From NCBI GenBank assembly GCA_024644465.1, contig JAHEKY010000016.1:1-43240 (forward strand): DNA of 43,240 nucleotides, given 5' to 3'. Of this stretch, positions 6,640-22,475 are shown piece after piece; the first letter of the stretch is position 1; every line of letters starts with the position of its first letter. The position numbers were made by a program, and so were the translations under genes. The notes under the pieces were generated by a model, which saw only the letters and a program-made list of their open reading frames with translations, was not told the DNA's origin and ran no database searches. The stretch comes from Ilumatobacteraceae bacterium (GTDB lineage: Bacteria > Actinomycetota > Acidimicrobiia > Acidimicrobiales > Ilumatobacteraceae).

Positions 6640-6673
6640 GTGCTGATCTCTTCGGGGTCCGGGCCGCGCCCGA

Positions 6674-6679
6674 ATCGTA
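6674..6679 (-). promoter_or_regulatory. -10 box candidate for the diguanylate cyclase gene
   Basis: TACGAT on the minus strand, about 34 nt before the ATG at 6639. It matches the TAnnnT consensus of actinobacterial housekeeping promoters. No clear -35 element is visible. Confidence 0.35.
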
Positions 6680-6713
6680 CCGCGTGGCCTCGAACCGAGC
6701 GGGTATGCGCGTG

Positions 6714-7673: not shown

Positions 7674-7678
7674 CGCGC

Positions 7679-9928
7679 TCAGATCAGTGGCGTCGACGCC
7701 AGTGGGTCGGCGGTCCCGAGTTGATCGAGTGGGTCGACTGCGAAGCTGGGGTCGTGATGCCAGGTCGAAGTCGGTTGCGGGAGCGAGGACCGGTCGGGCC
7801 GATCGTCGACCGGCTCGAGCTTGGGCTTGAACGCCGTCGCGCGGATCTCGGTGATCGTCTCCATGCGGACCGAGTGGTCGTTCAGCAGCCCGGTGTGCGT
7901 CGATCCCGGGACGATGGTCACGTCGAGTTTCCGTGCGGCGCGCAGACGCGCGATCTCGGCGTCGAGTGCCAGGAACCGCTGGAGTCCGAGCACCGGCTCG
8001 GGGCTCGGCTGCCAGACCAACCGCCCGTGCTGCCTCTCGAGCGCGGTGAGGACGTCGATGTCGCGTGCCTCGAGCACGTCGGACACGAGGAGTGCCAGCG
8101 AGCCGGGGACCGGGCCGGTCGAGTCACTCCGTTCGGCGTCGTCGTCCAGCGCGACGACCGTGAGGTGCTCGAGGCGATCGCCGTCGAGGAGATGCCGGTA
8201 CGACCCGCGGAAGTCCTCCATCGTCGTCACCGGCCCGAACAGCGTGCACGTGCGGATCGGTGCCGGAACGAGCGGGGCGAAGCGCGACAGCAGCAGGTCG
8301 CCCGCGCCGTGGCCGATCAGGTGGATCTCGAAGGGGTTCTTCGTGAGGTTGTACTCGATCGACTTCGCGAGCAGCCGCGCGGCGCCATCGCGGCGGAGGC
8401 AGGCTGCCTCGGATCGGCGCTGGATCTGATTCCACATCGTCGGCACCGAGTAGGCCGCGGCGAGGAACTTCGCCATGGGCGCGCCGCCGACGCGGTCGTA
8501 GTACCACTCCAGGTCGGTGCCGACGACCTTTTCGTCCAGCCCGGCGTCGGCGTACAGCCGGCCCTGCATGTCGGCGAACCACGGGGTGTCCCACAGCAGG
8601 AAGATCGGGTAGATCTCGTTGGCGATCAGCTCGTCGCGGAGCGGGGCGAGCATGTCGACCGTGGCGCTCGTCGAGAAGTAGCCGCCGTCGGCGATGATCG
8701 CCAGACGGCGTGTCGACCAGCCGGCGGTCTGTTGGCGGAACAGGAAGAGCATGGTCTTCAGTGAGTCGAAGTTCATCCCGAAGCTCGTGCCGAGCGGCGC
8801 GAAGAGCCCGTCGTCACCGATCGTCACGATGTGCCGCCACATTCGCGAGTACGACGCGGGGCGGACCGCGTCGGCCGGCGCGACGGAGCCCGGCTTCGGC
8901 GCGGGCTCCGGCAGCGTGGTCGGCTTCGCCAGCTCGCCCTCTCCGCCGCCGGCGTCAGCGGAGGTCTCGCCGGACACGTCGAAGTCGAACTCGTCGTCGT
9001 CGTCGGGATCGCGCTGTGGGTCGAGGGCGGCGCGCAGCAGCGCCGCCTCGGAGACGTGCACCTGGCTCACGTACTTCGACGTGTGGACGAACCACACGTC
9101 CTGCGCGTTGACCGTGAAGTCCTCGTACGGAAGGAGTGCATACCCCTGGTCGCCCCACTCCTGGCCCCACGAGTTGTGGATCCACCAGCCGCGCTCGTCG
9201 TAGCCGACGATCACGAACGCGTGCCCGCCGAGCATCTTGCCGCCGTGCGGCTGGTTGATCACCGTCTGATCCGGCAGGTAGAGGTTGATCCACCCGACAT
9301 GGGTCTGCGCGCTGACGAACAGCGGATGATCGAGCAGGAGCGACCGCTTCATGCTCGTCACGTCCGAGGCGTCGATCCGCAGATACAGGCTGCCGGGTCG
9401 GCGGACGGCGTCGATCACGCGTCGCAGGCTCAGGCGGCCATGCTTCTCGCCGTGTTCGTCGCCGGACTCGTAGGGCCACTCGATCTCGCGTGCGACGCCG
9501 CTCTTGCGCCATCCCTTCAACGCACCGCGCAGCGTCGAGCCCTGTTCGTAGTCGGCGCGGTCGTAGACCTGCGCCATCTCGTACATCATCCGGCGGCTGA
9601 CGGTGCGGTCGGCCCGTTCGGCCGTGGACAACTCGTGCCAGCGCTCGGCGACGTCTTTGCGCAGGTGATAGTCGGCGATCGCGGCCAGCGCGAACCCGAC
9701 GCACTCCTCGCCGCGCTGGTACCAGGTCGGATCGGCGAGGGTGCGATAGTTCGTCACCGAGTGCTGGTCCTTGAACGGCACATCCTGACGCAGCAGGCCG
9801 CGCAGGTGGTTCTCCGCATCCTCGAGCGTGTCGTCGGGGCTCAGGTCGTCGGGTGGGAAGGGCCGATCGCGGGGGTCGTAGGTGTCGGCAAAGACCTGAC
9901 CATGGAAATCGTCGTCGCGCTCGGACAT
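7679..9928 (-). CDS. Papain-like (C1) peptidase fused to a degenerate alpha/beta-hydrolase domain
   Basis: A 749-residue two-domain protein without a signal peptide. Residues ~45-285 form a C1 papain-type cysteine peptidase. The likely triad is Cys76 (RGEECVGFA), His236 (LGGHAFVIVGY) and Asn252 (HNSWG), with Gln71 as oxyanion candidate. An acidic, Pro-rich linker (about 305-355) follows. Residues ~360-700 resemble an alpha/beta hydrolase: a nucleophile-elbow-like IGHGAG at 538-543 and a late His678 (STHTGLLND). At position 541, where a Ser nucleophile is expected, there is Gly (codon GGC), so the lipase half is probably catalytically dead. The start at 9928 has an AAGGCGGA Shine-Dalgarno. It may be proteolytic, with the hydrolase half as a binding domain. 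Confidence 0.82.
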   Translation of the reverse strand: MSERDDDFHGQVFADTYDPRDRPFPPDDLSPDDTLEDAENHLRGLLRQDVPFKDQHSVTNYRTLADPTWYQRGEECVGFALAAIADYHLRKDVAERWHELSTAERADRTVSRRMMYEMAQVYDRADYEQGSTLRGALKGWRKSGVAREIEWPYESGDEHGEKHGRLSLRRVIDAVRRPGSLYLRIDASDVTSMKRSLLLDHPLFVSAQTHVGWINLYLPDQTVINQPHGGKMLGGHAFVIVGYDERGWWIHNSWGQEWGDQGYALLPYEDFTVNAQDVWFVHTSKYVSQVHVSEAALLRAALDPQRDPDDDDEFDFDVSGETSADAGGGEGELAKPTTLPEPAPKPGSVAPADAVRPASYSRMWRHIVTIGDDGLFAPLGTSFGMNFDSLKTMLFLFRQQTAGWSTRRLAIIADGGYFSTSATVDMLAPLRDELIANEIYPIFLLWDTPWFADMQGRLYADAGLDEKVVGTDLEWYYDRVGGAPMAKFLAAAYSVPTMWNQIQRRSEAACLRRDGAARLLAKSIEYNLTKNPFEIHLIGHGAGDLLLSRFAPLVPAPIRTCTLFGPVTTMEDFRGSYRHLLDGDRLEHLTVVALDDDAERSDSTGPVPGSLALLVSDVLEARDIDVLTALERQHGRLVWQPSPEPVLGLQRFLALDAEIARLRAARKLDVTIVPGSTHTGLLNDHSVRMETITEIRATAFKPKLEPVDDRPDRSSLPQPTSTWHHDPSFAVDPLDQLGTADPLASTPLI

Positions 9929-9968
9929 GGGTGGTTCCGCCTTTCCGTTGTCGTCGCGAGGTTCCAAA

Positions 9969-12833
9969 CTAGTCGATCGACTCTTGCCCTCGTCCAGGGT
10001 GGTCCGGCGCGGGTGCGGGCTCAGTGGTGCCGCGCGCGATGATCTGCCGCAACGCGTCGTCGGCCGCCGCGATCGCGTCGTGGACGTCCATCGGCGCGAT
10101 GCGCTCCTCCGCGCCGCCCGGGTCCTTGGCGAGGAATTGTCCGGTCCGCTCGAAGTGCTCGACGACCCAGAGCGGCTGCTCGACGCCGGTCTCCTCGTAG
10201 TACCGCCCGGCAACGGCGAGCAGCCGTCTCGCCAGCATGCGATCGTCGGTCAGCGATGCCGCGAGTTGGAGGATCCAGAACTTTGCAGCCTGGTACCAGT
10301 GGGCGTCCGGTTCGGCGAGCGCGGAGGAGAGGCGGCGCGCGGCGTCTTCGATCGCCCCGTCGACGATGTCGGCGAGCGCGAGCATCATGTCGACACTGTT
10401 GACGCCGGGTCGTACCCCGAGCGTGTCGAAATCGGAGCGGGACTCCTCGAGCAGGGTGCGTGCCTCCTTCGTGGTGCCGAGGTGGATGTTCAACTCGCCG
10501 AGTCCGGAACGGCCGAGCGCGACGCCATACGTGCTTCCCGCCGCGGCGGCTTCTTCGAGTGCCTCGGTGAACAGTGCCGCGGCCTGTGCGTAGCGACCGG
10601 CGTCCTTGTGCCCGAATCCGATCGTGGCGAGCGCGAGCGTGGCCGGCTCACCGGCGGCCCGGTACTGCTCGACCGCCTCGTGCAGCGTCGCCTCCCCCTC
10701 GTCGGCGCGGCCGAGGTCGTTGAGGAGGTTGCCGAGGTTGTTGAGCGCCGCTGCCAGCCGCCCCGGGTCACCGATGCGCCGACGGATCTCGACCTCGCGC
10801 ATCAGCATCGTGGCACCGGCCTCCGGGTTCGCCCAGGAGCCGAGCAACAGCGAGTAGGCGTGCAGCGTGGCCGCGAGCACCTCGTCGGGCAGGTCGGGTT
10901 CGTCCTCGAACAGTTCCTGGCACCAATCGATGCCTTCGACGAAGGTGCCGCTCGCGTACCACAGGTAGCCGATCGAGCTGATGATCCGGGCTGCCTCGAC
11001 GTTGTGGTGGTTGTCGATCGCGAAGCGGAGGGCGGCGCGAACGTTCTCGACGTCACGGTCGAGAGCGGCCAACGCCTCGGCGAGCTGGTCGCTGCGCCAC
11101 ATCCGTTCCAGCTCGGCGCACCGCGCGACGTAGAAGTCGGCGTGGGCGATCGCGATCGCCTCGTCCTCGTGATGCTCGGTGACCTTCGTCGCGCCGTAGT
11201 GGCGCATGCTCTCCAGAAGGCGGTACCACGTTGCGCCGTCGCCGCGATCCTCCGGGACCAGCATCGACTTGTCGATCAACGCGACGATGTGGTCGAGCAC
11301 GTCGAGCGCATCGACGTCGTCGCCGGCGCACACGTGCTCGGCGGCGGCGATGTCGAATGTCCCGGAGAAGACGCTGGCACGGCGGAAGACGGCCTGTTCG
11401 GCCGCGGTCAGGTGCTCATAGCTCCAGTCGATCGTCGCGGCGAGCGTCCGGTGGCGCTCGAGGGCACCGCGCGATGCGCCGGCGAGCAGGCGGAAGCGCT
11501 CGTCGAGGCGGGCGGCGATCTGTTCGGGTGACAACGCCCGCAATCGCGCCGCGGCGAGTTCGAGTGCGAGCGGGATCCCGTCGAGCCGGACGCAGATCGC
11601 GACGACCGCGTCGACGTTCTCCGCGGTGAGTTCGAAGTCGGCCCGGGCCAGCATCGCCCGCTCGCTGAAGAGCCGGACAGCATCGGTGTTGCGGACCGCC
11701 TTCAGATCGGTGGGGCGCGCTCGCGAGGACGGCTTGACCCAGTGCGGCAGCCCCAGGCCGGCGGCCGGCTCCTCCGCGGTCGGCGCCGGCGTCTGGAGCG
11801 ATGGCACGCGATAGCCGACCTCACCGCTGCTGTTGAGGCGTTCCCGGCTCGTCGCGAGGATCTTCAGCCCGTCGCACTCCCGCAACAGCTGGTCGACGAT
11901 CGGGGCGACGTCCTCGATGAGGTGCTCGCAGTTGTCGAGCACGAGGAGCAGTCGTTGGCTGCCGATTTTCGTCGTGATCGTGGCGATGAACTCGATCTCG
12001 GGCATCTCGCGCGCACCGATGTTGACCGCGATCTCGTCACAGATGAACTGCGGGTCGGCGACGGCCGCCAACTCGACGAAGCGAATGCCGTCGGGAAAGA
12101 ACTCCAGTGAGTCGGCGGCGACCTGCAGTGCGAGTCGCGTCTTGCCCGCCCCGCCCGCGCCCATCATCGTCACCAGCCGGTGGTCGCGCAGCAGCGCACC
12201 GACATCGGCGAGTTCCCGTTCCCGGCCGACGAAGCTGGTCAGCTGCGGTGGCAGGTTGATCGGCGGGCCTTCGAGCGTGCGGAGCGGCGCGAAGCCATCG
12301 GCGAGCTCCGGGTGGCGGATCTGGAAGATGTGTTCCGGACGCAGGAGGTCCTTCAGCCGGTGCTCGCCGAAGTCGACCAGCGTCGTCGCGTCCGGGAGTG
12401 AGTGCTCGACGAGCCGGGCCGTCGCGCCCGACACGATGATCTGGCCCCCGTGCGCCGACGACATCAGCCGCGCTGCCCGGTTGACGACGGCGCCGAAGTA
12501 GTCGCCGTCGCGCGCGGTGGCGGTACCGGTGTGCAGTCCCATCCGAATCCGGATCGTGATCTCGCCACACGGTTCGAGCAGTCGACGTTGCGTCTCGATC
12601 GCCGCGTTGAGTGCGTCGTGTGGCGACTCGAACGCGACGGCGAAGCTGTCACCGGCCGTCGTGAAGATGTAGCCGTCGTGGGCCGCCATCACCGCACGCA
12701 GGCGACGGTCGTGCTCGGCGAGGGCGGCGTCCATCGCCTCCGGCTCGCGCTCCCAGAGGCTGGTCGACCCCTCGAGGTCGGTGAAGAGGAACGTGATCTC
12801 TCCCGACGGAGCCGGCGCGTCGCCCCCGGTCAC
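9969..12833 (-). CDS. Class III adenylate/guanylate cyclase - AAA/NB-ARC-like ATPase - TPR regulator
   Basis: A 954-residue signalling protein. The N-terminal class III nucleotide cyclase domain (residues ~10-180) has both metal-binding aspartates, D19 in FTDLEGST and D62 in GDSFAVAF, and the NRAARL helix, so catalysis is plausible. A STAND-type ATPase follows, with Walker A GAGGAGKT (lysine 231) and Walker B LLLVLD (Asp300). The C-terminal ~350 residues are helical TPR-like repeats. No LuxR-type DNA-binding domain follows, unlike many actinobacterial relatives. The GTG at 12833 has an ACGGAGG Shine-Dalgarno 5 nt upstream; a longer frame would run into the divergent repeat-protein gene. It probably integrates a bound ligand or protein with cNMP production. 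Confidence 0.9.
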   Translation of the reverse strand: MTGGDAPAPSGEITFLFTDLEGSTSLWEREPEAMDAALAEHDRRLRAVMAAHDGYIFTTAGDSFAVAFESPHDALNAAIETQRRLLEPCGEITIRIRMGLHTGTATARDGDYFGAVVNRAARLMSSAHGGQIIVSGATARLVEHSLPDATTLVDFGEHRLKDLLRPEHIFQIRHPELADGFAPLRTLEGPPINLPPQLTSFVGRERELADVGALLRDHRLVTMMGAGGAGKTRLALQVAADSLEFFPDGIRFVELAAVADPQFICDEIAVNIGAREMPEIEFIATITTKIGSQRLLLVLDNCEHLIEDVAPIVDQLLRECDGLKILATSRERLNSSGEVGYRVPSLQTPAPTAEEPAAGLGLPHWVKPSSRARPTDLKAVRNTDAVRLFSERAMLARADFELTAENVDAVVAICVRLDGIPLALELAAARLRALSPEQIAARLDERFRLLAGASRGALERHRTLAATIDWSYEHLTAAEQAVFRRASVFSGTFDIAAAEHVCAGDDVDALDVLDHIVALIDKSMLVPEDRGDGATWYRLLESMRHYGATKVTEHHEDEAIAIAHADFYVARCAELERMWRSDQLAEALAALDRDVENVRAALRFAIDNHHNVEAARIISSIGYLWYASGTFVEGIDWCQELFEDEPDLPDEVLAATLHAYSLLLGSWANPEAGATMLMREVEIRRRIGDPGRLAAALNNLGNLLNDLGRADEGEATLHEAVEQYRAAGEPATLALATIGFGHKDAGRYAQAAALFTEALEEAAAAGSTYGVALGRSGLGELNIHLGTTKEARTLLEESRSDFDTLGVRPGVNSVDMMLALADIVDGAIEDAARRLSSALAEPDAHWYQAAKFWILQLAASLTDDRMLARRLLAVAGRYYEETGVEQPLWVVEHFERTGQFLAKDPGGAEERIAPMDVHDAIAAADDALRQIIARGTTEPAPAPDHPGRGQESID

Positions 12834-13559: not shown

Positions 13560-14387
13560 TCAACCCGCCGCGACCGCGCACGCCGTCGGGTTCGACGCGA
13601 GCCAGTCCGCGATCTCTGCGGCGGGGCTGAGCGGTCGGCCCGCTTTCCACGCATCGAGGTACGGGTGGGGCCACACGACGCCGCGCCGTACCGACCACTC
13701 CGGCCGGGGGCACGGCGGCGAGATCCCGAAATGGACGTGGCATGCGGACGCGCGACCGGTGTCGCCGACCGTCCCGAGGGGCAGACCTGCGAGGATCCGC
13801 TGCCCGACGCCGAGGCCCTCGGCGATCGTGGCGAAGTGGGCGAGGTAGTAGCGGACACCGTCGTCACCCCGGATCGCCACCGAGCGGCCGCCTCGCGTCG
13901 CGGGGTCGTCGACTTCCGGCGACCACGCGTCGATGGTGCGGACCTCGAGCACCTCGCCATTGACGGGGCTGACGATCGTCGCCCCGCACCCACCGACGAC
14001 GAAGATGTCCGTCGCCGGGTAGGTCGAGTGGGTCGGGTTCCAACCCGCGAGGTCGGGCTGCGCGATCGGCACGACATACGGCGTCGTGGTCGGGACACTG
14101 ACGCGCGTCGCAGCGGTCTCCGCCGTCGCGGCGGTGGCGACGGCCGACCGCTCGAACGGCTCCGGCTGGAACCCGATCGGTTCGACGGTGGTCGGCGCGG
14201 CGGTGGTCCGCGCGACGGTGCTCGGTGGAATCGTCGAGTCCGCTTGCGCCGACCCGGCTGTCGTCGCCGGCTCGGACACGACCAGCGGTTGCTCACCCGT
14301 CGAGTCGGCGCAGCCGGCCGCGGCGAGCAGGAACGGGGCGAGCGCACAGAACCCACGCCGCAACGGGTGCAACGCGGCGGCGACCAT
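13560..14387 (-). CDS. M23 (LytM-like) metallopeptidase lipoprotein
   Basis: A 275-residue predicted lipoprotein: basic start, hydrophobic stretch and a lipobox-like AAGC with Cys26. A Thr/Ala/Pro-rich linker (about 30-110) leads to an M23 peptidase domain. H120 and D127 (THSTYPATDIF), H184 and the HVHFG motif (H217, H219) are likely zinc ligands and catalytic residues. The variant HxxxxxxD spacing is typical of a subset of actinobacterial M23 proteins. It probably hydrolyses peptidoglycan cross-links outside the membrane. A TAGAGT -10 box lies 6 nt before the ATG, suggesting a leaderless mRNA. It is convergent with the SHAGGPG protein gene. Confidence 0.85.
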   Translation of the reverse strand: MVAAALHPLRRGFCALAPFLLAAAGCADSTGEQPLVVSEPATTAGSAQADSTIPPSTVARTTAAPTTVEPIGFQPEPFERSAVATAATAETAATRVSVPTTTPYVVPIAQPDLAGWNPTHSTYPATDIFVVGGCGATIVSPVNGEVLEVRTIDAWSPEVDDPATRGGRSVAIRGDDGVRYYLAHFATIAEGLGVGQRILAGLPLGTVGDTGRASACHVHFGISPPCPRPEWSVRRGVVWPHPYLDAWKAGRPLSPAAEIADWLASNPTACAVAAG

Positions 14388-14393
14388 CGCGGA

Positions 14394-14399
14394 ACTCTA
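14394..14399 (-). promoter_or_regulatory. -10 box of predicted leaderless promoter (TAGAGT) for the M23 gene
   Basis: TAGAGT on the minus strand, exactly 6 nt before the ATG at 14387. No Shine-Dalgarno is present. Confidence 0.5.
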
Positions 14400-14434
14400 A
14401 CGACCCCGCTCACGGGCACCAGCGGTCGCCTTGC

Positions 14435-14440
14435 TAGAAC
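14435..14440 (+). promoter_or_regulatory. -10 box of predicted leaderless promoter (TAGAAC) for the MaoC-like gene
   Basis: TAGAAC lies exactly 6 nt before the ATG at 14447, which favours that codon over the GTG at 14441. Confidence 0.45.
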
Positions 14441-14446
14441 GTGCAC

Positions 14447-14896
14447 ATGGTGTCGATCTACTTCGAGGACCTCACTCCGGGGCGCGTCTTCGAGCTCGGT
14501 TCGGTGACCGTCACGAAGGAGGCGATCATCGAATTCGCCACCCGCTACGACCCCCAGCCGTTCCACGTCGACGAGGACGCCGCGCGGGAGTCCTCGTTCG
14601 GTGGTCTGATCGCGAGCGGCTGGCACACCGGGTCGCTCTGGATGCGGCTCTTCGCGGACGGCGTGCTCGCCGAGACCGACAGTCGCGGCTCGCCGGGGAT
14701 CGAGGAGCTGCGGTGGCGGGCGCCCGTCCGGCCGGGCGACACGTTGCACGGGACGTCGACGATCATCGCGGCCGCGCCGTCGGATCGCGACTCGACCAGG
14801 GGGACGGCGGTCGTCGAGTCGACGATGACGAACCAGGACGGCGTCGTCGTCATGACGCTGCGCAGCCGGGGCATGTTCGGCCGCCGGCCGACCTGA
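14447..14896 (+). CDS. MaoC-like (hot-dog fold) dehydratase
   Basis: A 149-residue single-domain hot-dog protein of the MaoC/(R)-specific enoyl-CoA hydratase family. The catalytic-type region FATRYDPQPFHVDEDAA is followed by FGGLIASGWHT, the usual hydratase-2 signature. It would hydrate a trans-2-enoyl-CoA or related thioester; members are also found as thioesterase-like proteins. The ATG at 14447 fits the leaderless promoter. A GTG at 14441 is in frame and gives only two extra residues. It stands alone, so its pathway cannot be inferred. Confidence 0.87.
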   Translation: MVSIYFEDLTPGRVFELGSVTVTKEAIIEFATRYDPQPFHVDEDAARESSFGGLIASGWHTGSLWMRLFADGVLAETDSRGSPGIEELRWRAPVRPGDTLHGTSTIIAAAPSDRDSTRGTAVVESTMTNQDGVVVMTLRSRGMFGRRPT

Positions 14897-14983
14897 CGCC
14901 GACGACCGGGACTCGACGGGCGGTGACGTGATCGGTACGTTGGCGGCGGGTCGGCACCGGGTCGATCCCGGAAGGATGCGTTC

Positions 14984-16285
14984 GTGCTGCTACGTCTGAA
15001 GAAGATTCAGGAGGATCTGCGCAGCAGCCTGTTCTTCATCCCGATGCTGTGCGTGCTCGGCGGCGTCGCGTTGGCCGTCGTGATGCTCGGCGTCGACGAC
15101 CGGTACGACGGGCTGCCGAGCCGGCTCACCGCGACCGTCGACAGCTCGCGGGGGGTGCTGACCGTCGTCGCGAGTGCGACGTTGTCGTTCGCGGGCATCG
15201 CCTTCTCGGTCAGCCTGCTGCTGATCTCGCTCGCGTCGAGCCAGTTCTCGCCCAGGGTCGTCCACGGCCTGTTCCGCGATCGGTTCACGAAGCGGGTGAT
15301 GGGTGTCGTCGTCGGGACATTCACGTACTGCCTCGTCGTGATGCGCGCCGTCAGGGGTCCGCTCGAGGATTCCGGCTCGCCCGTGATCCCGAGCATCTCG
15401 ACACTCGTCGCCGTTCTGCTCGGCGTCGTGTCCGTGTTGTCGATCATCGCGTTCATCAGCCACAGCGCGCACTCGATGGACGTGTCGAAGATCCTCCACG
15501 ACGTCACGCGTGACACGATCGACCGGATCAAGCAGACCTGGCCGGAAGTCACCGACGACGACGAGGACGACCACGACGAATCGGAGGTGGACCTCACCGA
15601 ACCGAGCGGCGAGTCGAAGGCCATCGCGTTCGACCGCCACGGCTGGGTGCAGCAGGTCGACTACGACGCACTGTTCGAGGTACTGGCCGACGGTGCGACG
15701 CTGCGGCTCGACACCGCCCCGGGGCGCTACGCGATCCCCAACACGCCGCTGTGCACGATCTGGCCGCCGCCGGAGGACCCCGAACTCGTCGGCAAGGCCG
15801 TCGCCGCCGCGATCATCATCGGCGAGACCCGCACGACGCAGCAAGACGCCGCGTACGGGCTGCGCCAACTCGTCGATGTCGCGTTGAAGGCGCTCTCTCC
15901 GGGGGTGAACGACCCGACGACCGCACAGGATGCGCTGTTCCATCTCGCCGCGGTCGTGCAGGAGATGCTCGTCCGCGAACAGCCGCGCCGCGGGCTCAGC
16001 CGGGATGACGGTCGGCGACTGCTGCTGCCGCGGCTGACCAGCCACGAGGAGGCGATCGAGGAGGCGTTCGACGAGGTTCGCCTCGCCGCGGCCGGGTTGC
16101 CCACCGTGCTGACCTATCTCCTCGAGATCATCTACTTGCTGTCGCTGTCGTTGGCCGAGGACTCCGAGGTGCGCACCGCGCTGACCCGCCAGGCCGAACT
16201 GATCGTCGAGTCGATCGATTCGAACGTCCCCGACCGGGACCGGGACCGGGTGCGCGCGGAGTACCGAGAACGCTTCGAGAACTGA
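14984..16285 (+). CDS. DUF2254 family membrane protein
   Basis: A 433-residue predicted membrane protein. Four helices lie in the first ~170 residues (about 18-38, 62-86, 110-130, 140-162), followed by a long cytosolic domain of about 260 residues. The conserved sequence FAGIAFSVSLLLISLASSQFS and the YGLRQLVDVALKALSPGVNDPTTA stretch are typical of DUF2254, a family of unknown function. The GTG start has a GGAAGG Shine-Dalgarno at about 14970. It ends 18 bp from the convergent unknown gene. Confidence 0.85.
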   Translation: MLLRLKKIQEDLRSSLFFIPMLCVLGGVALAVVMLGVDDRYDGLPSRLTATVDSSRGVLTVVASATLSFAGIAFSVSLLLISLASSQFSPRVVHGLFRDRFTKRVMGVVVGTFTYCLVVMRAVRGPLEDSGSPVIPSISTLVAVLLGVVSVLSIIAFISHSAHSMDVSKILHDVTRDTIDRIKQTWPEVTDDDEDDHDESEVDLTEPSGESKAIAFDRHGWVQQVDYDALFEVLADGATLRLDTAPGRYAIPNTPLCTIWPPPEDPELVGKAVAAAIIIGETRTTQQDAAYGLRQLVDVALKALSPGVNDPTTAQDALFHLAAVVQEMLVREQPRRGLSRDDGRRLLLPRLTSHEEAIEEAFDEVRLAAAGLPTVLTYLLEIIYLLSLSLAEDSEVRTALTRQAELIVESIDSNVPDRDRDRVRAEYRERFEN

Positions 16286-16303
16286 GTCGCGCGACGCGCA
16301 ACG

Positions 16304-16828
16304 TCAGTCGGCGTCCGGCCCCTGGGCGCGGAGGTCGTCGACGGCTTCCATCGCATCGCGGAGATCCGCCAACCAGTCGTCGGCGTGCCTGCCGACGAGG
16401 CGGACGCACCAGGCGAGTGCGTCCGAGCGCGAGCGGGCGACGTTGGCGGCGACGAGCGTGTCCAACACCTGTCGCTCCGGCTGGCGCAGGCGGGTCATCA
16501 CCGGCGCGGCGAGGTGGGTGAAGACCGCGAGCGTGCCGTCGATGGTGACACCCCACGCGACCTTGCGCTCGAACCGGTGCTCCGCCTCGCGGGCGATCGT
16601 GATGCGGCGTTCGCGGGTGTCCTCGCGGAAGCCGGCGATCCGGCCGGCGATCGCCTCGCCACGGTCGGCCTCGCTGGCGCCGTCGCCGAGCTCGGGCGCG
16701 GCGAGCGCGAGCGTGACCGTGATCTCGTCGCGGTCGATCGACATCGACGGCGGGGCGACGGTCGTCCAGTCGGCGGGCAGGCGGCCTTCGAACCATGCCC
16801 GGATCGTCGAGTGCTCGGTGGCGGTCAT
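16304..16828 (-). CDS. Conserved hypothetical protein
   Basis: A 174-residue soluble protein that I do not recognise. The first ~110 residues alternate strand-like and helical segments. The C-terminal part (SRSDALAWCVRLVGRHADDW then LADLRDAMEAV) resembles a short helical DNA-binding or dimerisation element of ribbon-helix-helix type, a weak impression only. A TACGGT -10 box 6 nt before the ATG suggests a leaderless transcript. It lies 43 bp downstream of the MscS gene on the same strand. Confidence 0.65.
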   Translation of the reverse strand: MTATEHSTIRAWFEGRLPADWTTVAPPSMSIDRDEITVTLALAAPELGDGASEADRGEAIAGRIAGFREDTRERRITIAREAEHRFERKVAWGVTIDGTLAVFTHLAAPVMTRLRQPERQVLDTLVAANVARSRSDALAWCVRLVGRHADDWLADLRDAMEAVDDLRAQGPDAD

Positions 16829-16834
16829 GGTGCG

Positions 16835-16840
16835 ACCGTA
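16835..16840 (-). promoter_or_regulatory. -10 box of predicted leaderless promoter (TACGGT)
   Basis: TACGGT on the minus strand, exactly 6 nt before the ATG at 16828. The sequence between it and the MscS stop is AT-richer than the surroundings. Confidence 0.5.
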
Positions 16841-16871
16841 TCGCGTTGATTACAAGATTACAAGAAAGATC

Positions 16872-17714
16872 TCAGGATCCGGTGTCGCCGGCCCACCACA
16901 GCGTGCGCTGCGGGAACGGGATCGTGATGTCGGCGGCGGCGAGCGCATCGTTGATCGCCAGCGCGACGTTGCTGCGCGTGGTCCAGAACACGGCGATCGT
17001 CGGCTCGTGCCAGAACCGCACCACGAAGTCGATGCTCGAGTCTCCGAAGCCCTCCAGCAGCACCTCCGGGACCGGCTCGCTGCGGACGCCGTCGGCCGCG
17101 GCGACCGCGCGCTCCAGCACCGCCTTTGCCTGCCGGAGGTCGGTGCCGTACGCGACACCGATCGGCAACGTCGTGCGACGGCCGCCCTGCTCGGTGTAGT
17201 TGTTGATGTCGGACTTGATCACCGTCGCCGACGGGATCTTGACCGTCTCGCCCGCCGGCGTGATCATCGTGACGAGACGGGTGTCGATGTCGTGGATCGT
17301 GCCCGCGTGCTCGTTGATCTCGACCTGGTCGCCGTACCGGAACGGGCGCTGGAGTTGGAGCAGCACGCCGGCGACGAAGTTCTCGAGGATGTCCTTCAGC
17401 GCGAACGCGAGCGCGAACCCGGCCAGACCGAGCGCACCGACGACGATGCCGATGTCGATGCCGAGGCTCTCCAAGGCATAGACGAAGCCGATGATCACGA
17501 TCAGATAGGCGAGCAGGCGGCCGATCAGCGCGGCGAGCGACGGGTCGAGGCGCCGCTGGAGCACCCGGCACACGATCATCTTCGCGATGCGCGACAGCAC
17601 GATCGCCACGACGAACACGATGCCCGCCGTCGCCCACGCCCACGCATCGAGCCCGTCGCCCGTGAGGGCCTCGGCGAGGGCGTCGCCGTCGATCTCGGAC
17701 TGGCGGATCGTCAT
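16872..17714 (-). CDS. MscS-family small-conductance mechanosensitive channel
   Basis: A 280-residue protein with three membrane helices (about 24-45, 65-85, 93-120). The pore-lining helix is rich in Gly/Ala (GALGLAGFALAFALKDILENF). The MscS beta domain (PFRYGDQVEINEHAGTI, then DIDTRLVTM) and alpha/beta C-terminal domain follow. It would open under membrane tension to release solutes during hypo-osmotic shock. The ATG at 17714 is the most likely start; a GTG at 17732 is in frame. It is divergent from the RimB/aspartoacylase/RimK operon, with about 115 bp between the starts, so the two units may be co-regulated. Confidence 0.88.
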   Translation of the reverse strand: MTIRQSEIDGDALAEALTGDGLDAWAWATAGIVFVVAIVLSRIAKMIVCRVLQRRLDPSLAALIGRLLAYLIVIIGFVYALESLGIDIGIVVGALGLAGFALAFALKDILENFVAGVLLQLQRPFRYGDQVEINEHAGTIHDIDTRLVTMITPAGETVKIPSATVIKSDINNYTEQGGRRTTLPIGVAYGTDLRQAKAVLERAVAAADGVRSEPVPEVLLEGFGDSSIDFVVRFWHEPTIAVFWTTRSNVALAINDALAAADITIPFPQRTLWWAGDTGS

Positions 17715-17829
17715 CTCCCGACGTTGCCACACCGCTGACCGCCGGGGGTGGTATCCGGACGTGCGCGGGCCCGGCCGTGCCGCTCATCGGAGCGGTCCCG
17801 CGGTGCACGATCTGCGAAGATGGGCGCCC

Positions 17830-18318
17830 ATGACCAAGACGGCGCGATCGCGCGAGCAGCCAGTGGCGATCGGCTGGCGCGAATGGGTGGCGCTCCCATG
17901 CTGGGGTATCGACGCGATCAAGGCCAAGATCGACACCGGCGCCCGCACGTCGGCGATCCACGCCTTCGACCTCGAGTCCTTCGAACGCGACGGCGAGCCG
18001 TGGGTGCGCTTCGAGATCCATCCCTGGCAGCGGTCGAGTGCCGACGAAGTGGTCGTCGAAGCGCCGCGCATCGACCGGCGAACCGTCAGGAGTTCGTCCG
18101 GGATGCGGTCGGACCGGCCGGTCGTCCGCGCCCATCTGGAGATCTCCGGACGGTCGATCGACGCCGAGCTGACCCTCACGCGGCGCGATGAGATGGGTTT
18201 CCGGATGCTGATCGGGCGCGAAGCGCTGCGGCGACGGTTCGTCATCGACCCGGCGCGGTCCTATCTCGGTGGCCGGCCGCCGCGCGAGGTCCGCCGTCGG
18301 AATCGGGCCCGGCAATGA
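17830..18318 (+). CDS. rimB: RimB-like retropepsin (ATP-dependent zinc protease / DUF785 family)
   Basis: A 162-residue protein of the RimB/DUF785 group, retropepsin-like aspartic peptidases historically annotated as ATP-dependent zinc proteases. The hallmark KIDTGARTSAIHA is at residues 33-45 with D35 as the catalytic aspartate. FRMLIGREALRRRFVIDP closes the fold as in other members. RimB is known in some bacteria to act with RimK, which adds glutamates to ribosomal protein S6. Here it heads a three-gene operon: its TGA overlaps the ATG of the aspartoacylase-like gene. A weak GAAGAT -10-like box lies at 17816-17821. Gene symbol by family and context only. Confidence 0.85.
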   Translation: MTKTARSREQPVAIGWREWVALPCWGIDAIKAKIDTGARTSAIHAFDLESFERDGEPWVRFEIHPWQRSSADEVVVEAPRIDRRTVRSSSGMRSDRPVVRAHLEISGRSIDAELTLTRRDEMGFRMLIGREALRRRFVIDPARSYLGGRPPREVRRRNRARQ

Positions 18319-19334
18319 GCGCCGCCAAGCGGCGCGATCCGTTCAGGATCGGCGACCTCGAACTCGCGGCGGGTCGCGCCGGCAGTGGCGAGCTCCCGGT
18401 GGCGCGTCTCGTCACCGGCAACCGCGTCTCGATCCCGGTGCGTGTGCTGCACGGCCGTGCGGACGGCCCGACCGTCTGGCTCAGTGCCGCGGTCCACGGT
18501 GACGAGGTCGCCGGCGTCGAGATCATCCGTCGCACCCTGGCGTCGATCGATCCGCGTTCCCTGCACGGCACGGTGATCGCCGTGCCGATCGTGAACGTGC
18601 ACGGGTTCCTCAACGGCGACCGCTACCTGCCCGACCGGCGCGACCTCAACCGGTCGTTTCCCGGCTCGCCGAACGGATCGCTCGCCGGTCGGATCGCCAA
18701 CCTGTTCATGACCGAGATCGTCGAACGGTGCGACGTCGGCGTCGACCTGCACACCGGGTCCGACCACCGCACGAACCTCCCTCAGATCCGTGCGGATCTC
18801 GACGACCGGGCGACCCGCGAGCTCGCGGTCGCATTCGGCGCTCCGCTGATGCTGCATGCCAAGCTCCGCGACGGTTCGATGCGGGCGGCTGCGACGGCGG
18901 CCGGCGCCACGATGCTGCTGTTCGAGGGCGGCGAGGCGTGGCGCTTCGACGAGCATGCGCTCTCGGTCGGCACCCGCGGCGTCGCCCGGGTGTTGCATCA
19001 ACTGGGGATGAACAACGGCGGCGAGACGGACGTCATCGACCCACCGCTGGAGAGCCGCAGCAGCTCGTGGGTCCGCGCCCGTCGGAGCGGGATCTCCTCG
19101 CTGCACGTCGCGCTCGGCGATGCCGTCACCAAGGGAGGGGCACTGTCGACGATCCACGACTCGGTCGGGAAGCGGCTGAGCGTCACCCGAGCCCACCGGA
19201 GCGGTGTCGTCATCGGCCACACGCAGCATCCACTCGTCAACCAGGGCGACGCGATCGTCCACATCGCAGAAATCCACCGGGCGGCAACCGAGACGCCCGA
19301 CGACACGCAATCGAACAGCAAGGACACGTCATGA
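18315..19334 (+). CDS. Succinylglutamate desuccinylase/aspartoacylase family deacylase
   Basis: A 339-residue zinc-dependent deacylase or carboxypeptidase. The zinc and catalytic motifs are intact: H61 and E64 (HGDE), DRRDLNRSFPG at 108-117, H146 (DLHTG) and a late catalytic Glu in LFEGGE (204-207). Characterised relatives hydrolyse N-acyl amino acids (AstE, aspartoacylase) or trim terminal residues. Overlapping ATGA junctions at both ends lock it between the RimB-like and RimK-like genes. It may therefore act on the product of the ligase, such as removing a glutamate or N-acyl group. Residues after ~315 are a Thr/Asp/Ser-rich tail. Confidence 0.85.
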   Translation: MSAAKRRDPFRIGDLELAAGRAGSGELPVARLVTGNRVSIPVRVLHGRADGPTVWLSAAVHGDEVAGVEIIRRTLASIDPRSLHGTVIAVPIVNVHGFLNGDRYLPDRRDLNRSFPGSPNGSLAGRIANLFMTEIVERCDVGVDLHTGSDHRTNLPQIRADLDDRATRELAVAFGAPLMLHAKLRDGSMRAAATAAGATMLLFEGGEAWRFDEHALSVGTRGVARVLHQLGMNNGGETDVIDPPLESRSSSWVRARRSGISSLHVALGDAVTKGGALSTIHDSVGKRLSVTRAHRSGVVIGHTQHPLVNQGDAIVHIAEIHRAATETPDDTQSNSKDTS

Positions 19335-20527
19335 AGTTGGCCATTCTCTCCCGCGCCCCGCACGCCTACAGCACCCACCGGCTCAAGTCGGCCGCGTTGG
19401 AACGGGGCCACGAGTGTCGCGTGCTGAACACGATGCGCTTCGCGATCGACCTCGCCGCCGACGAGCCGGACATGCAGTTCCGCGGCAAGCAACTGTCGGA
19501 CTACGACGCGATCCTGCCCCGTATCGGCGCTTCGATCACGTACTTCGGCACGGCTGTCGTGCGGCAGTTCGAGCAGATGGACGTCTACACGCCGAACACG
19601 GCGAACGGCATCGCGAACTCGCGCGACAAGCTGCGAGCGACGCAGATCCTCAGCCGGCACGACATCGGGATCCCTGCGACGTCGTTCGCCCGTGACAAGG
19701 CCGATGTGCTCGCTGCGATCGAACTGGTCGGCGGGGCGCCCGTGGTGATCAAGCTGCTGGAGGGCACCCAGGGGATCGGGGTCATCCTCGCGCCGGACAA
19801 GAAGGTCGCGGAGGCGATCATCGAGACGCTGCAGAGCACGAAGCAGAACGTCCTGATCCAGCAGTTCATCTCGGAGAGCAAGGGCCGCGACATCAGGGCG
19901 CTCGTCGTCGGTGATCGCGTCGTCGGTGCGATGCGGCGCACGGCCCAGGGCGACGAGTTCCGCTCGAACGTGCACCGTGGCGGCGAGGTCGAATCCGTCG
20001 AGCTGTCGCCCGAGTATCAGCGCACCGCAGTACGCGCGGCCCAGATCATGGGGCTGCGCGTTGCCGGCGTCGACATGCTCGAGGGCAATGACGGCCCGCT
20101 CGTCATGGAGGTCAACTCGTCGCCCGGGCTCGAGGGAATCGAACGCGCGACGAACCTCGACATCGCCGGCGCGATCATCGACCACATCGCCAACCAGGTC
20201 GCCTTCCCGGAACTCGACGTGCGCCAGCGGTTGAGCGTCAGCACCGGCTACGGCGTCGCGGAGATCCACGTCCACGACGACGCCGAGATCGTCGGCAAGA
20301 CGATCGCCCAGTCGGGCCTCCGCGACAGCGACATCACGGTGCTGACGTTGCACCGCGACACCGATGTGATTCCGAATCCCCGCGACAGCCGCGTCCTGCA
20401 CGCCAACGACCGGTTGCTGTGCTTCGGCAAGTTGGAGTCGATGCGGGGGATGATCCCGGCCAGGCGCAAGCGGCGTCCCAAGGTGCGCGCGCTGCCCGAG
20501 GACGCGATCGCCGAGGCCACCGAGTAG
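19331..20527 (+). CDS. rimK: RimK-type ATP-grasp glutamate ligase with C-terminal TrkA-C (RCK_C) domain
   Basis: A 398-residue fusion. Residues 1-~300 are a RimK-type ATP-grasp ligase: start KLAILSRAP, ATP-contacting VVIKLLEGTQGIGVIL at 138-153, FISESKGRDIRALVV at 179-193, and the metal/ATP motif GPLVMEVNSSPGLEGIE at 255-271. E. coli RimK is about 300 residues. The extra ~100 residues contain a TrkA-C/RCK_C module (about 308-372: GVAEIHVHDDAEIVGKT, then HANDRLLCFG), a domain that in transporters binds nucleotides such as c-di-AMP. A basic tail (ARRKRRPK) follows. RimK adds glutamates to protein or peptide termini. The ligand-sensing domain suggests control by a small molecule, which is inference. 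Confidence 0.92.
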   Translation: MKLAILSRAPHAYSTHRLKSAALERGHECRVLNTMRFAIDLAADEPDMQFRGKQLSDYDAILPRIGASITYFGTAVVRQFEQMDVYTPNTANGIANSRDKLRATQILSRHDIGIPATSFARDKADVLAAIELVGGAPVVIKLLEGTQGIGVILAPDKKVAEAIIETLQSTKQNVLIQQFISESKGRDIRALVVGDRVVGAMRRTAQGDEFRSNVHRGGEVESVELSPEYQRTAVRAAQIMGLRVAGVDMLEGNDGPLVMEVNSSPGLEGIERATNLDIAGAIIDHIANQVAFPELDVRQRLSVSTGYGVAEIHVHDDAEIVGKTIAQSGLRDSDITVLTLHRDTDVIPNPRDSRVLHANDRLLCFGKLESMRGMIPARRKRRPKVRALPEDAIAEATE

Positions 20528-20541
20528 ACCCCGGCGGGGCG

Positions 20542-20952
20542 TCAGCCGACGACGACCGTCGCCCGCATCGTCGGGTGGATCTGGCAGAAGTAGTCGTAGG
20601 TCCCTGCTTCGGCGAACTCGACGTCGAACGTCTCGTCCTGGCCGAGGTTGCCGGAGTCGAACTGGAACGCGGCATCGTCCCGAGCGGTCACCGTGTGGGC
20701 GAACGGGTCGTTGTTGGTGAACGTCACGGTCTCGCCGACCGCGACGGCGATCTCCGTCGGGTCGAAACGCGAGCTCGAGATGCCGACCGCCGGAGCGTTT
20801 GCTGGCCCGTCGGCGGGCGCTGCGTCGGTGACCGCCGAGGGCGGCTCGGTCGCCGGCGGGGTGTCGGCGGCGTCGTCCGATCCGCTGCAGGCAGCGGCGG
20901 CGAGGACGGCGAGCGTCAGTACTGAGGTCGAGAGGATTCGGTTCATGGTCAT
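20542..20952 (-). CDS. Cupredoxin (blue-copper, plastocyanin/azurin-like) lipoprotein
   Basis: A 136-residue predicted lipoprotein. A hydrophobic signal ends at a lipobox-like AAAC (Cys22), followed by a Pro/Thr/Ala linker of about 35 residues. The type-1 copper fold has ligands H86 (FAHTVTA), C123, H126 and M129 (CQIHPTM). It would carry single electrons at the outer face of the membrane. The start could be ATG 20952 or ATG 20946 (MNRIL). It is divergent from the gene starting near 21138, a His-containing helical lipoprotein that may also touch metal. Its 3' end is 14 bp from the RimK stop. Confidence 0.88.
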   Translation of the reverse strand: MTMNRILSTSVLTLAVLAAAACSGSDDAADTPPATEPPSAVTDAAPADGPANAPAVGISSSRFDPTEIAVAVGETVTFTNNDPFAHTVTARDDAAFQFDSGNLGQDETFDVEFAEAGTYDYFCQIHPTMRATVVVG

Positions 20953-21137
20953 GCGGGTGGTTCGGTGCTCGGCCGGCGTTGGATCACTCCGACTCCGGCG
21001 GTCGAAGAAATCTTCGCACGGATGATCCAAACGCGAGGCACGCCCGAACGACTTCCCGAAGCCCGGACATCGAGCTTCCGTCCCGTGACCGGGACGTCGT
21101 GAACCCCCACCCCCAGGAGCGTTACTCAGGACGAAAG

Positions 21138-22475
21138 ATGCTCGCACTCGCTGCGACGATCTCGATCACCGCTGCAGCGTGCAGCAGCGACGGCGACGAC
21201 ACCGCCGTCATCTCCGACTCGGTCGGCACCGAAGCACCCGCCGCCACCGATGCACCGGTCGCCACCGATGCACCGGTCGTCACCGACGCTCCGGCGCACA
21301 ACGACACCACCATGGCCACCGACGCACCGGCCGAGACCGATGCGCCGGCCGAGCCGGCGGCGTTCGCAACCGACGACGGCGCCTCGACCCTGCGCGCCGG
21401 GCTGACCAGCCTGCTGCAGGAACACGTCTACCTCGCGGGCGTCGCCTTCGAGACCGCCGTCGACGCAGGTGGCGACCTCGAGGACCCGGCGGTCGGTGCC
21501 GCCGTCGCCGCACTCGACGAGAACTCCGTCGCGCTGTCCGAGGCGGTCGGCTCCGTCGCCGGCGACGAGAACGGAGCGGCGTTCCTCGATCTGTGGCGTC
21601 AGCACATCGGCTTCTTCGTCGACTACACGCTCGGCGAAGCGACCGGCAACGAGGAGATGAAGGCGCAGGCCCTCACCGATCTCCAGGGTTATCAGCTGGC
21701 AGCCGGCGATTTCTTCTCGAACATCACCGGTGGCGCGATCGACGCCGACACGCTCGTCGGCGGGCTGGAGATGCACGTCTCGACGCTGACTGCCGCGATC
21801 GACTCGATCGTCGCCGGTGACGCGGATGCGTTCGACAACCTGAAGGCCGCCGCCGAGCACATGCAGGGCGCGGCGCTGCTGCTGTCGTCCGGGATCGTGA
21901 CGGCGGTGCCGGAGATGTTCCCGGGTGATGTCGAGAGCGGACCGTCCGAGGTCCGCACAACGCTCACCTACCTCCTCCAGGAGCACGTCTACCTGGCAGG
22001 CATCGCGATCGAGCAGGCGATCGAAGCCGGTGGCGATCTCGAACAACCCGCCGTGCAAGCGGCGGTCGCGACGCTGGACGCGAACACCGTCGAGCTCGCG
22101 GACGTCGTCGGTTCGGTCGCCGGTGAGGAGAACGGAGCCGCGTTCCGTGATCTGTGGCGTCAGCACATCGGCTTCTTCGTCGACTACACGCTCGGCGAGG
22201 CGACCGGCAACGAGGAGATGAAGGCGCAGGCCCTCACCGACCTCGAGGGTTATCAGCAGGCAGCCGGCGCGTTCTTCGAGGAGATCACCGCCGGGGAGAT
22301 CGTTCCCGCCGAGCTGATCCCCGGCCTCGAGATGCACGTCTCGACGCTGACCGCAGCCATCGACTCCTTCGTCGCCAGTGACACCGCAGCGTTCACCCAG
22401 CTGCGGGCCGCCGGCCAGCACATGCCGGGCGCCGCGCTGTACCTGGCCACCGGAATCGTCGCCGCCACGAGCTGA
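21138..22475 (+). CDS. Secreted lipoprotein with two copies of a His-containing helical domain
   Basis: A 445-residue predicted lipoprotein (Cys15 after ITAAA), with a Thr/Asp/Ala-rich linker and two copies of a ~180-residue all-helical domain. Each copy holds the same histidines: LLQEHVYLAG, LWRQHIGFFVDYTLG and LEMHVSTLTAAIDS, plus AAEHM or AGQHM. Four His on four helices suggest a bundle able to bind metal or heme. Similar domains exist in Firmicutes proteins often labelled copper amine oxidase without the oxidase domain; this is recognition from memory. An AGGA Shine-Dalgarno at 21128 favours the ATG at 21138. A GTG at 21099 would add a positively charged n-region (SGRK) that the signal otherwise lacks. 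Confidence 0.72.
   Translation: MLALAATISITAAACSSDGDDTAVISDSVGTEAPAATDAPVATDAPVVTDAPAHNDTTMATDAPAETDAPAEPAAFATDDGASTLRAGLTSLLQEHVYLAGVAFETAVDAGGDLEDPAVGAAVAALDENSVALSEAVGSVAGDENGAAFLDLWRQHIGFFVDYTLGEATGNEEMKAQALTDLQGYQLAAGDFFSNITGGAIDADTLVGGLEMHVSTLTAAIDSIVAGDADAFDNLKAAAEHMQGAALLLSSGIVTAVPEMFPGDVESGPSEVRTTLTYLLQEHVYLAGIAIEQAIEAGGDLEQPAVQAAVATLDANTVELADVVGSVAGEENGAAFRDLWRQHIGFFVDYTLGEATGNEEMKAQALTDLEGYQQAAGAFFEEITAGEIVPAELIPGLEMHVSTLTAAIDSFVASDTAAFTQLRAAGQHMPGAALYLATGIVAATS
21591..21695 (+). repeat. Near-identical internal duplication, copy 1
   Basis: A 105-bp block from ctgtggcgtcagcac to the codon block ggttatcag. It differs from the copy at 22152-22256 (561 bp downstream, in frame) at only three positions. 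The flanking parts of the two protein domains are much more diverged. Confidence 0.9.
22152..22256 (+). repeat. Near-identical internal duplication, copy 2
   Basis: The second copy of the 105-bp block, in the C-terminal domain of the same gene. Differences from copy 1 are GAA/GAG, GAT/GAC and CAG/GAG; only the last changes the protein. Confidence 0.9.

Follow-up and report, generated by a model that had tools for sequence, protein, structure and literature searches.

The rimB-deacylase-rimK locus

The stretch of Ilumatobacteraceae DNA analysed here (contig JAHEKY010000016.1, positions 1 to 43,240; the whole 43,240 nucleotides are referred to as the window) harbours a three-gene operon on its forward strand, encoding a RimB-type retropepsin, an AspA/AstE-family zinc deacylase and a RimK alpha-L-glutamate ligase, the last of which carries a TrkA_C (RCK_C) domain behind its ligase core. 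This fusion defines a real RimK subfamily and is not a chance arrangement, and it suggests that glutamate-chain making may be tuned here by the salt state of the cell and not be aimed at the usual ribosomal target. The rimB gene (17830-18318, 162 amino acids; PF05618, E 2.5e-37) and the deacylase gene (18315-19334, 339 amino acids; PF24827 AstE_AspA_cat, E 2e-41) share a 4-base ATGA overlap at 18315-18318, and a second such overlap at 19331-19334 joins the deacylase gene to rimK (19331-20527, 398 amino acids; assigned with Pfam and NCBIfam). A gene for an MscS-type mechanosensitive channel on the reverse strand (16872-17732), the product of which matched all three MS_channel domains in Pfam (PF00924, 1.4e-17; PF21082, 7e-14; PF21088, 1.5e-7), diverges from the operon across a gap of 97 bases counted from its GTG start. 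Coordinates and Pfam matches thus agree with the original prediction, made from the sequence alone, of a rimB-deacylase-rimK operon with two ATGA overlaps opposite an MscS gene. The window's own genome (G000) comprises 3.37 Mb and is 82.9% complete. Rfam searches over 14000-22000 returned nothing above threshold and no RNA element was found, while sigma-70 promoter and terminator prediction over 17650-20700, which is uninformative in high-GC DNA, returned none.

The RCK_C domain of RimK

In RimK a Rimk_N pre-ATP-grasp domain (residues 1-94, 19331-19612; PF18030, E 8.2e-35) and an ATP-grasp domain (residues 98-286, 19622-20188; PF08443, E 3.1e-61) are followed by an extension of approximately 110 residues that is basic at its end. 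Within this extension PF02080 TrkA_C matched residues 309-371 (20255-20443; E 3.2e-9) with 37.0 bits against a cut-off of 27, so that the predicted RimK-TrkA_C fusion held when the protein was checked by hidden Markov model after residue 300; as to the predicted length of about 100 residues for the TrkA-C domain, this figure fits the extension, but the TrkA_C match itself covers 63 residues. A profile built from 18 tails retrieved KtrA, KtrC, KhtT and BusR, albeit with weak E-values of 0.001-0.06. As the full-length AlphaFold-type model was of low confidence (mean pLDDT 61), only the tail, as an AlphaFold model with a mean pLDDT of 77, was subjected to a fold search, and Foldseek matched it to chains of MthK, KtrC and KhtT with E ~1e-5 (9e-6 to 1e-4) and a TM-score of ~0.6. 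Among the 50 shown of 91 Foldseek matches at E <=0.001, all bear RCK or potassium-channel titles except 2bko and 2bkn ('unknown function'), and these two were grouped in the tail-profile results with 1vct, which is titled potassium channel related. By Pfam and by predicted fold, residues 309-371 are thus an RCK_C domain. Behind it lies a basic C-terminal tail (residues 373-398, 20447-20524; recognised by net charge) of variable length among fused RimKs, with a mean net charge at residues 373-396 of +6.2 over 103 aligned fused rows (101 distinct sequences, L163 being a duplicate of L076) and of +3 in the window's own protein. Over 81 rows, the commonest residue at a position accounts for 90% of rows on average in the ligase and for 83% in the RCK_C domain. 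The window's own genome yielded ten TrkA_C matches, nine of them above the cut-off, which indicates that the domain is widely used by this host.

Spread of the fused subfamily

The search for relatives confirmed at least 561 places, of which the best 80 were kept; all 80 match the window RimK to residue 375 or further, and their proteins measure 390-413 residues. By title these 80 are actinobacteria, together with three Spirochaetes contigs (L009, L023 and L031) and one 'proteobacterium' (L076), the closest, with 95% identity, being L002, a metagenome-assembled genome of Ilumatobacter. When 149 genomes were drawn evenly from the window's phylum, and more distant ATP-grasp matches left out of the counts, 7 had the fused form (75-100% identity) and 5 a RimK ending near residue 290 (51-55%). 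For 188 genomes of the phylum to which G179, the source of L076, belongs, the matches listed comprise 16 fused loci of full length, spread over 14 genomes (58-77% identity) and including that of G179, as well as numerous unfused RimKs and one split match in G309. Among the proteins read, fused RimKs are 389-423 amino acids long as opposed to 293-319 for unfused ones, with no overlap. In a tree built from the ligase cores of 71 rows, the 39 fused ones cluster without exception, with one unfused row inside the cluster (L190) and one beside it (L202), such that the fused/unfused label requires two changes; the placement of these two is unsure owing to their long branches. L190 (G311) is an unfused RimK of 293 residues, also without the glutamate at position 178 that is considered below, and probably represents a secondary loss of the RCK_C tail.

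A fused form on plasmids or phages was sought and rejected, as none of 116 plasmid and none of 33 phage records covers 80% of the window RimK, and the 40 plasmid and 15 phage rows listed stop short of the TrkA_C domain. The phage records H41-H55 are cyanophages with RimK homologues of 35-36% identity that lack the C-terminal extension, many of them annotated as S6 glutaminyl transferase. Among the matches listed from the Creative Commons-licensed PubMed Central literature no description of a RimK-TrkA_C fusion was found; one listed paper in which both RimK and an RCK domain are named deals with Mg2+ in neurons (PMC12733198), and 'TrkA' is absent from the main texts of PMC11957791, PMC4741518 and PMC10092738.

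Active-site residues and partner enzymes

The window RimK passes TIGR00768 (257.5 bits, cut-off 143.4) and falls just under the cut-off of NF007764, the 30S ribosomal protein S6--L-glutamate ligase equivalog (324.2 bits, cut-off 331), while the NCBIfam models CofF and MptN match it below their cut-offs. In Pseudomonas RimK polyglutamate is contacted by S7, R8, S14, R64, S68, R189 and N262, and ADP by K141, E178, I180, F210, S212 and N213 (PMC10092738). The polyglutamate contacts are conserved in 98-103 of the 103 fused rows and the ADP contacts K141, F210, S212 and N213 in 100-103, with V or I at position 180 in 102; at position 178 (19862-19864 in the window) R, S, K, Q, H, A or G replaces Glu in 101. 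As judged from the alignment, the active-site residues of fused RimKs are largely intact.

The retropepsin with a DTGA motif that had been predicted was recovered, PF05618 being accompanied by DTGA at residues 35-38, and D35, G37 and A38 are identical in 114/114 loci with a RimB match (131 searched); against NF052261, the RimB equivalog, the protein scored 118.4 bits, under the cut-off of 200. For the deacylase the best named NCBIfam model was DoeB, with 110 bits far under its cut-off of 402.7, and in a search of the window's own genome with this model the window's gene was the sole match. Deacylase residues H61, E64 and H146, which serve as metal ligands in this family, are kept in 60 of 61 matching loci, the remaining row having no letter there. 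Pseudomonas RimB cuts polyglutamate, removing glutamates from polyglutamated RpsF, and in addition stimulates polyglutamate synthesis by RimK (PMC11957791). In light of the former activity it is plausible, as had been proposed for the window, that ligase, protease and deacylase together add and remove a tag.

Ribosomal protein S6 is an improbable general substrate

The usual annotation of RimK is that of an enzyme modifying S6, and S6 of E. coli ends in Glu-Glu. In a first set of S6 proteins 7/7 fusion-bearing genomes were without a terminal Glu; in a second, for which an S6 hit was obtained in 32 genomes and 30 were read, 22 were without terminal Glu, 8 ended in a single Glu and none in Glu-Glu. 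Over the 37 fusion-bearing genomes this amounts to no Glu-Glu, 8 single Glu and 29 without terminal Glu, in a comparison that held no Glu-Glu host as a positive control; the window genome's own S6 ends in PTA. Among the other S6 proteins read, a terminal Glu was seen in one of four hosts of an unfused RimK and in two of five hosts without a RimK match (G008 and G016), so the occurrence of one Glu at the end of S6 does not follow that of RimK. The absence of a Glu-Glu tail from fused hosts makes S6 improbable as a general substrate, and on these tail sequences S6 was rejected in that capacity. The proposal that RimK and RimB act on S6, which the original prediction carried over from other bacteria, was accordingly not supported. 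It has also been stated that RimK may have further roles in organisms with an S6 lacking a terminal Glu (PMC11957791). Long C-terminal extensions rich in Ala, Lys and Glu were observed on S6 of fusion-bearing actinobacteria, at the S6 loci L122, L123, L125-L127, L129, L131, L133, L135-L138 and L143-L145.

The possible RCK_C ligand

It had further been suggested that a small ligand, perhaps cyclic di-AMP (c-di-AMP), controls the ligase through the RCK_C domain. Of 70 genomes with the fusion, 43, that of the window among them, matched the domain of diadenylate cyclase, the enzyme making c-di-AMP (DAC, PF02457; 6/7, 20/23 and 17/40 in the three sets), as did none of the other 27, of which 23 are Microbacteriaceae, 2 are Micrococcales and 1 is a marine actinobacterium, these last three without an assigned family, while the 27th is G107; some DAC-less genomes are metagenome-assembled with completeness not stated, and many are isolates. 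In the DAC-less hosts the RCK_C domain is not relaxed: its mean identity is 0.789 in 26 DAC-less rows as compared to 0.761 in 21 DAC-bearing actinobacterial rows, with similar core identities of 0.867 and 0.873, and the ratio of RCK_C to core divergence is 1.59 as opposed to 1.89. As 27/70 hosts without DAC keep a conserved RCK_C domain, c-di-AMP is unlikely as a universal ligand and was rejected as such, thereby contradicting the proposal in its general form; that it is the ligand in some lineages is possible.

The published c-di-AMP signature, (I/L)(I/L)X2DXRX5N(I/L)(I/L) (PMC10117811), occurs in 0/81 fused tails, a weak negative since known binders, compared by eye, deviate from it also. 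Residue 331, matched by eye to the signature Arg, is R in 18/25 DAC-bearing but only 5/26 DAC-less rows, where W takes its place in 14/26; over residues 306-375 a marked difference between the two groups exists at only 9/70 positions. At one locus from G304 (L170; G304:C107:35400-48500) fused rimK, a deacylase gene, an MscS gene (9211-10089) and an 859-residue frame with CdaA_N and DAC domains (10066-12645) lie within approximately 7 kb (5967-12645), on a contig that has three MscS matches and one more fused rimK. Five genomes of the window's family or genus group (G000, G112, G031, G149 and G368) contain 2-4 DAC matches each, exceeding the single DisA that Actinobacteria are said to have (PMC10117811). 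Unfused Pseudomonas RimK was not stimulated by c-di-AMP (PMC10092738).

Gene neighbourhood and a possible osmotic link

Neighbouring genes were surveyed with hidden Markov models seeded from the window and from annotated plasmid records. RimB was the most constant neighbour, being present at 79 of 81 fused loci, as compared to 33 for the deacylase, 3 for MscS (the window, L002 and L006) and 1 for CorA; at the two loci lacking RimB, L003 and L060, rimK lies 408 and 38 bases from the contig end. A further 22 fused loci gave RimB in 16, deacylase in 12, MscS in 2 (both G304), MgtE in 1 and CorA in 2, while 18 unfused loci gave RimB in 9, deacylase in 10 and MscS in 1 (G202, together with CorA). 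The corresponding numbers for 15 plasmid records were RimB 12, deacylase 7, MscS 4, MgtE 3 and CorA 2; these records are a selection out of 116, in which 11 were included once a first instance of MscS had been noticed, and their MscS, MgtE and CorA matches hold by construction, as the seeds came in part from those records, where the genes are annotated. In Vibrio nigripulchritudo the order is rimK-aspA-rimB-MscS, in Salinivibrio MscS and a Mg2+ transporter are located upstream of rimB, and in V. europaeus MgtE, CorA and MscS follow rimB. The three-gene module with an unfused RimK is also found on plasmids of Vibrionaceae, Rhodobacterales and cyanobacteria.

The original prediction had taken the divergent MscS gene as an osmotic hint, and this was weakly upheld insofar as certain further lineages have MscS a few kb away, including that of L170, where it is located upstream on the opposite strand approximately 2 kb from rimK; an adjoining and divergent MscS gene is, however, confined to 2/81 fused loci, the window and its sister L002. 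The survey thus rejected the notion that the MscS link occurs only here, yet the link is sparse, and the view that MscS belongs to the conserved core of the fused module was likewise rejected (3/81 and 2/22 loci). The KO identifier of rimK is K05844. K05844, a mechanosensitive channel and a Mg2+ uptake system are commoner in brackish than in marine relatives (PMC10219603), and in Photobacterium damselae rimK was 52-fold higher at 1% NaCl (PMC10308900). A rimK mutation in a Cs+-resistant E. coli strain (PMC10831881) and the loss of RimK in an Azotobacter algU mutant (PMC10651043) are also on record but carry no weight in this assessment. An osmotic connection of the operon is weakly supported.

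Comparison with known systems

One of the closest known systems is the Pseudomonas Rim system (RimK and RimB, with or without RimA), with which the window shares a ligase and a retropepsin in one locus and conserved polyglutamate residues; it differs in the RCK_C domain of its RimK, in the lack of a Glu-Glu tail on S6 of fused hosts, in the near absence of Glu at position 178 (2/103) and in its middle gene. RimA of Pseudomonas is an EAL phosphodiesterase and the middle gene here encodes an AspA-type deacylase, so the window operon is not RimABK. The RimBK hybrid of the Desulfotalea type is likewise a RimK domain fusion for which RpsF glutamylation was not observed, although there RimB is added N-terminally (PMC11957791) whereas the RCK_C domain of the window RimK is C-terminal. 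Loci of the rimK-aspA-rimB type with an unfused RimK comprise the same three adjoining families, some with MscS, MgtE or CorA, but lack RCK_C and have ligases 53-55% identical to that of the window. KtrA/KtrC, KhtT, CpeA and BusR all possess an RCK_C domain, and BusR exemplifies RCK_C control of a non-transporter protein, but an RCK_C domain fused to a RimK ligase was not found in the literature searched. The Pseudomonas rlo operon combines the retropepsin RloA with the ATP-grasp protein RloC and is involved in hypo-osmotic tolerance; RloA is, however, predicted to be secreted, and the parts of the paper seen mention neither RCK_C nor a deacylase (PMC12239564).

A proposed function and its rivals

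We consider it about an even chance that the fused RimK makes poly-alpha-glutamate, which RimB trims, and that the RCK_C domain tunes this synthesis to ionic or osmotic conditions in the cell. Fused RimK would elongate poly-alpha-glutamate, with either free glutamate or some acceptor distinct from S6 as the starting point, RimB would shorten the chain, and the AspA-type deacylase, present in fewer than half of the fused loci, may process a precursor or product that is N-acylated. The RCK_C dimer would bind an ion or a nucleotide, though not c-di-AMP in every host, and this ligand would set ligase activity in cis through allosteric control, so that glutamate polymerisation would follow the cell's ionic or osmotic state. 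In favour of this are the fusion itself with its clean length split and its grouping on the tree, the conserved polyglutamate contacts, the two activities of Pseudomonas RimB and the constancy of RimB beside fused rimK, the S6 tails, the MscS, MgtE and CorA neighbours and the two salinity findings. Several observations weigh against this. The RCK_C domain evolves 1.6-1.9 times faster than the ligase core, which makes a looser role such as oligomerisation possible, and E178 is Glu in only 2/103 fused as compared to 27/32 unfused rows, so that nucleotides may be handled differently at that site. In place of an EAL RimA the operon has an AspA-type deacylase, and 8/37 S6 proteins end in one Glu, leaving S6 possible in those hosts. 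MscS near fused rimK is rare (3/81 and 2/22 loci, in three lineages) and its excess is weak, with 0.72 expected in 69 genomes (from per-genome MscS counts; L006 lies outside the 69) against five loci in three lineages seen, giving a nominal P of 0.037 for three or more. Furthermore, RimK in the salinity papers is either unfused or not specified as to form, and biochemistry of a fused RimK-RCK_C protein was not found in the literature searched.

The likelihoods attached to the rival explanations overlap with that of RCK_C-tuned polyglutamate synthesis and need not sum to one. The combination originally put forward, in which c-di-AMP binds RCK_C and thereby controls S6 glutamylation, is very improbable: by sequence the closest solved structures are the RCK_C domains of KtrA, KtrC, KhtT and BusR, if with weak E-values, KtrC and KhtT rank high by fold, DAC is present in most fusion-bearing genomes, G304 places CdaA_N + DAC and MscS genes beside fused rimK, and R is the prevalent residue 331 in DAC-bearing rows, yet none of the 37 genomes has a Glu-Glu S6 tail and 29 have no terminal Glu at all, 27/70 genomes are without DAC and their RCK_C is unrelaxed, no tail contains the signature (from which known binders deviate by eye), and c-di-AMP gave no stimulation of the unfused Pseudomonas RimK (PMC10092738). 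A narrower version, which overlaps with RCK_C-tuned polyglutamate synthesis, has c-di-AMP controlling fused RimK on a substrate other than S6 in DAC-bearing lineages with a switch of ligand in Microbacteriaceae; it is doubtful, since the change of residue 331 from R to W in 14/26 DAC-less rows, the DAC-MscS-RimK neighbourhood of G304 and the 2-4 DAC matches in five genomes of the window's family or genus group are countered by the possibility that the shift at residue 331 is a single ancestral change, by the paucity of differing positions and the missing signature, and by a rough, uncomputed estimate that chance could account for a single DAC neighbourhood among about 50 genomes.

That the RCK_C domain acts solely in oligomerisation or docking, as a lock on the RimK tetramer or a platform for RimB and with no small-molecule input, is in keeping with the dimerisation of BusR RCK_C domains (PMC8517857), the tetrameric state of unfused RimK (PMC10092738) and the constancy of RimB as a neighbour. 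We regard this as rather unlikely, given that the PNP and D.LLCFG segments are conserved across proteins of 58-95% identity, seemingly beyond the needs of a bare dimer, and that ligand binding is known for many RCK_C domains, even though in Streptomyces only 2/6 bound c-di-AMP. Rather unlikely as well is a role in making and removing a small N-acyl glutamyl peptide, osmolyte or cofactor-like, with the deacylase and RimK working on a single metabolite in place of a protein or polyglutamate, which again overlaps in part with RCK_C-tuned polyglutamate synthesis: a deacylase is found around rimK in 33/81, 12/22 and 10/18 loci and relatives of RimK ligate Glu to small molecules (the CofF and MptN matches, both under cut-off), but 58/103 fused loci have no AspA/AstE-type deacylase in their stretch, and the more constant partner is RimB, a polyglutamate endopeptidase in Pseudomonas. 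Less likely still is that the operon constitutes a reversible valve for osmolyte polymerisation. Glutamate is a main counter-ion of K+ in the cytoplasm, and upon hypo-osmotic shock or a change in ions RCK_C would turn RimK on, cytoplasmic glutamate would be polymerised, and poly-alpha-glutamate would lower the number of osmotic particles while nitrogen is retained; RimB would depolymerise the chain upon upshift, with MscS as an emergency partner. Were this so, it would to our knowledge be the first RCK_C domain gating a biosynthetic ligase.

If RCK_C-tuned polyglutamate synthesis is correct, RCK_C control extends from ion transport and transcription to the synthesis of a glutamate polymer. The fused RimK subfamily is widespread, carries a regulatory domain of the channel type and belongs to hosts with an S6 that has no Glu-Glu tail; it thereby offers a handle on the role of RimK where S6 is not its substrate, and on the ligand of RCK_C in DAC-less hosts such as Microbacteriaceae.

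Adjoining genes

The gene adjoining MscS (16304-16828, reverse strand) matches the NCBIfam model AbmR, an ATP-binding transcription factor, with 245.7 bits against a cut-off of 160. A DUF2254 predicted membrane protein is encoded at 14984-16285 on the forward strand (PF10011, E 3e-98), and among the best 80 related loci this gene is nearby only in L002. Downstream of the operon, the frame at 20979-22475 (forward strand), for which there was no Pfam match at E 0.001, consists of two similar halves with LLQEHVYLAG in each, and probably arose by internal duplication.

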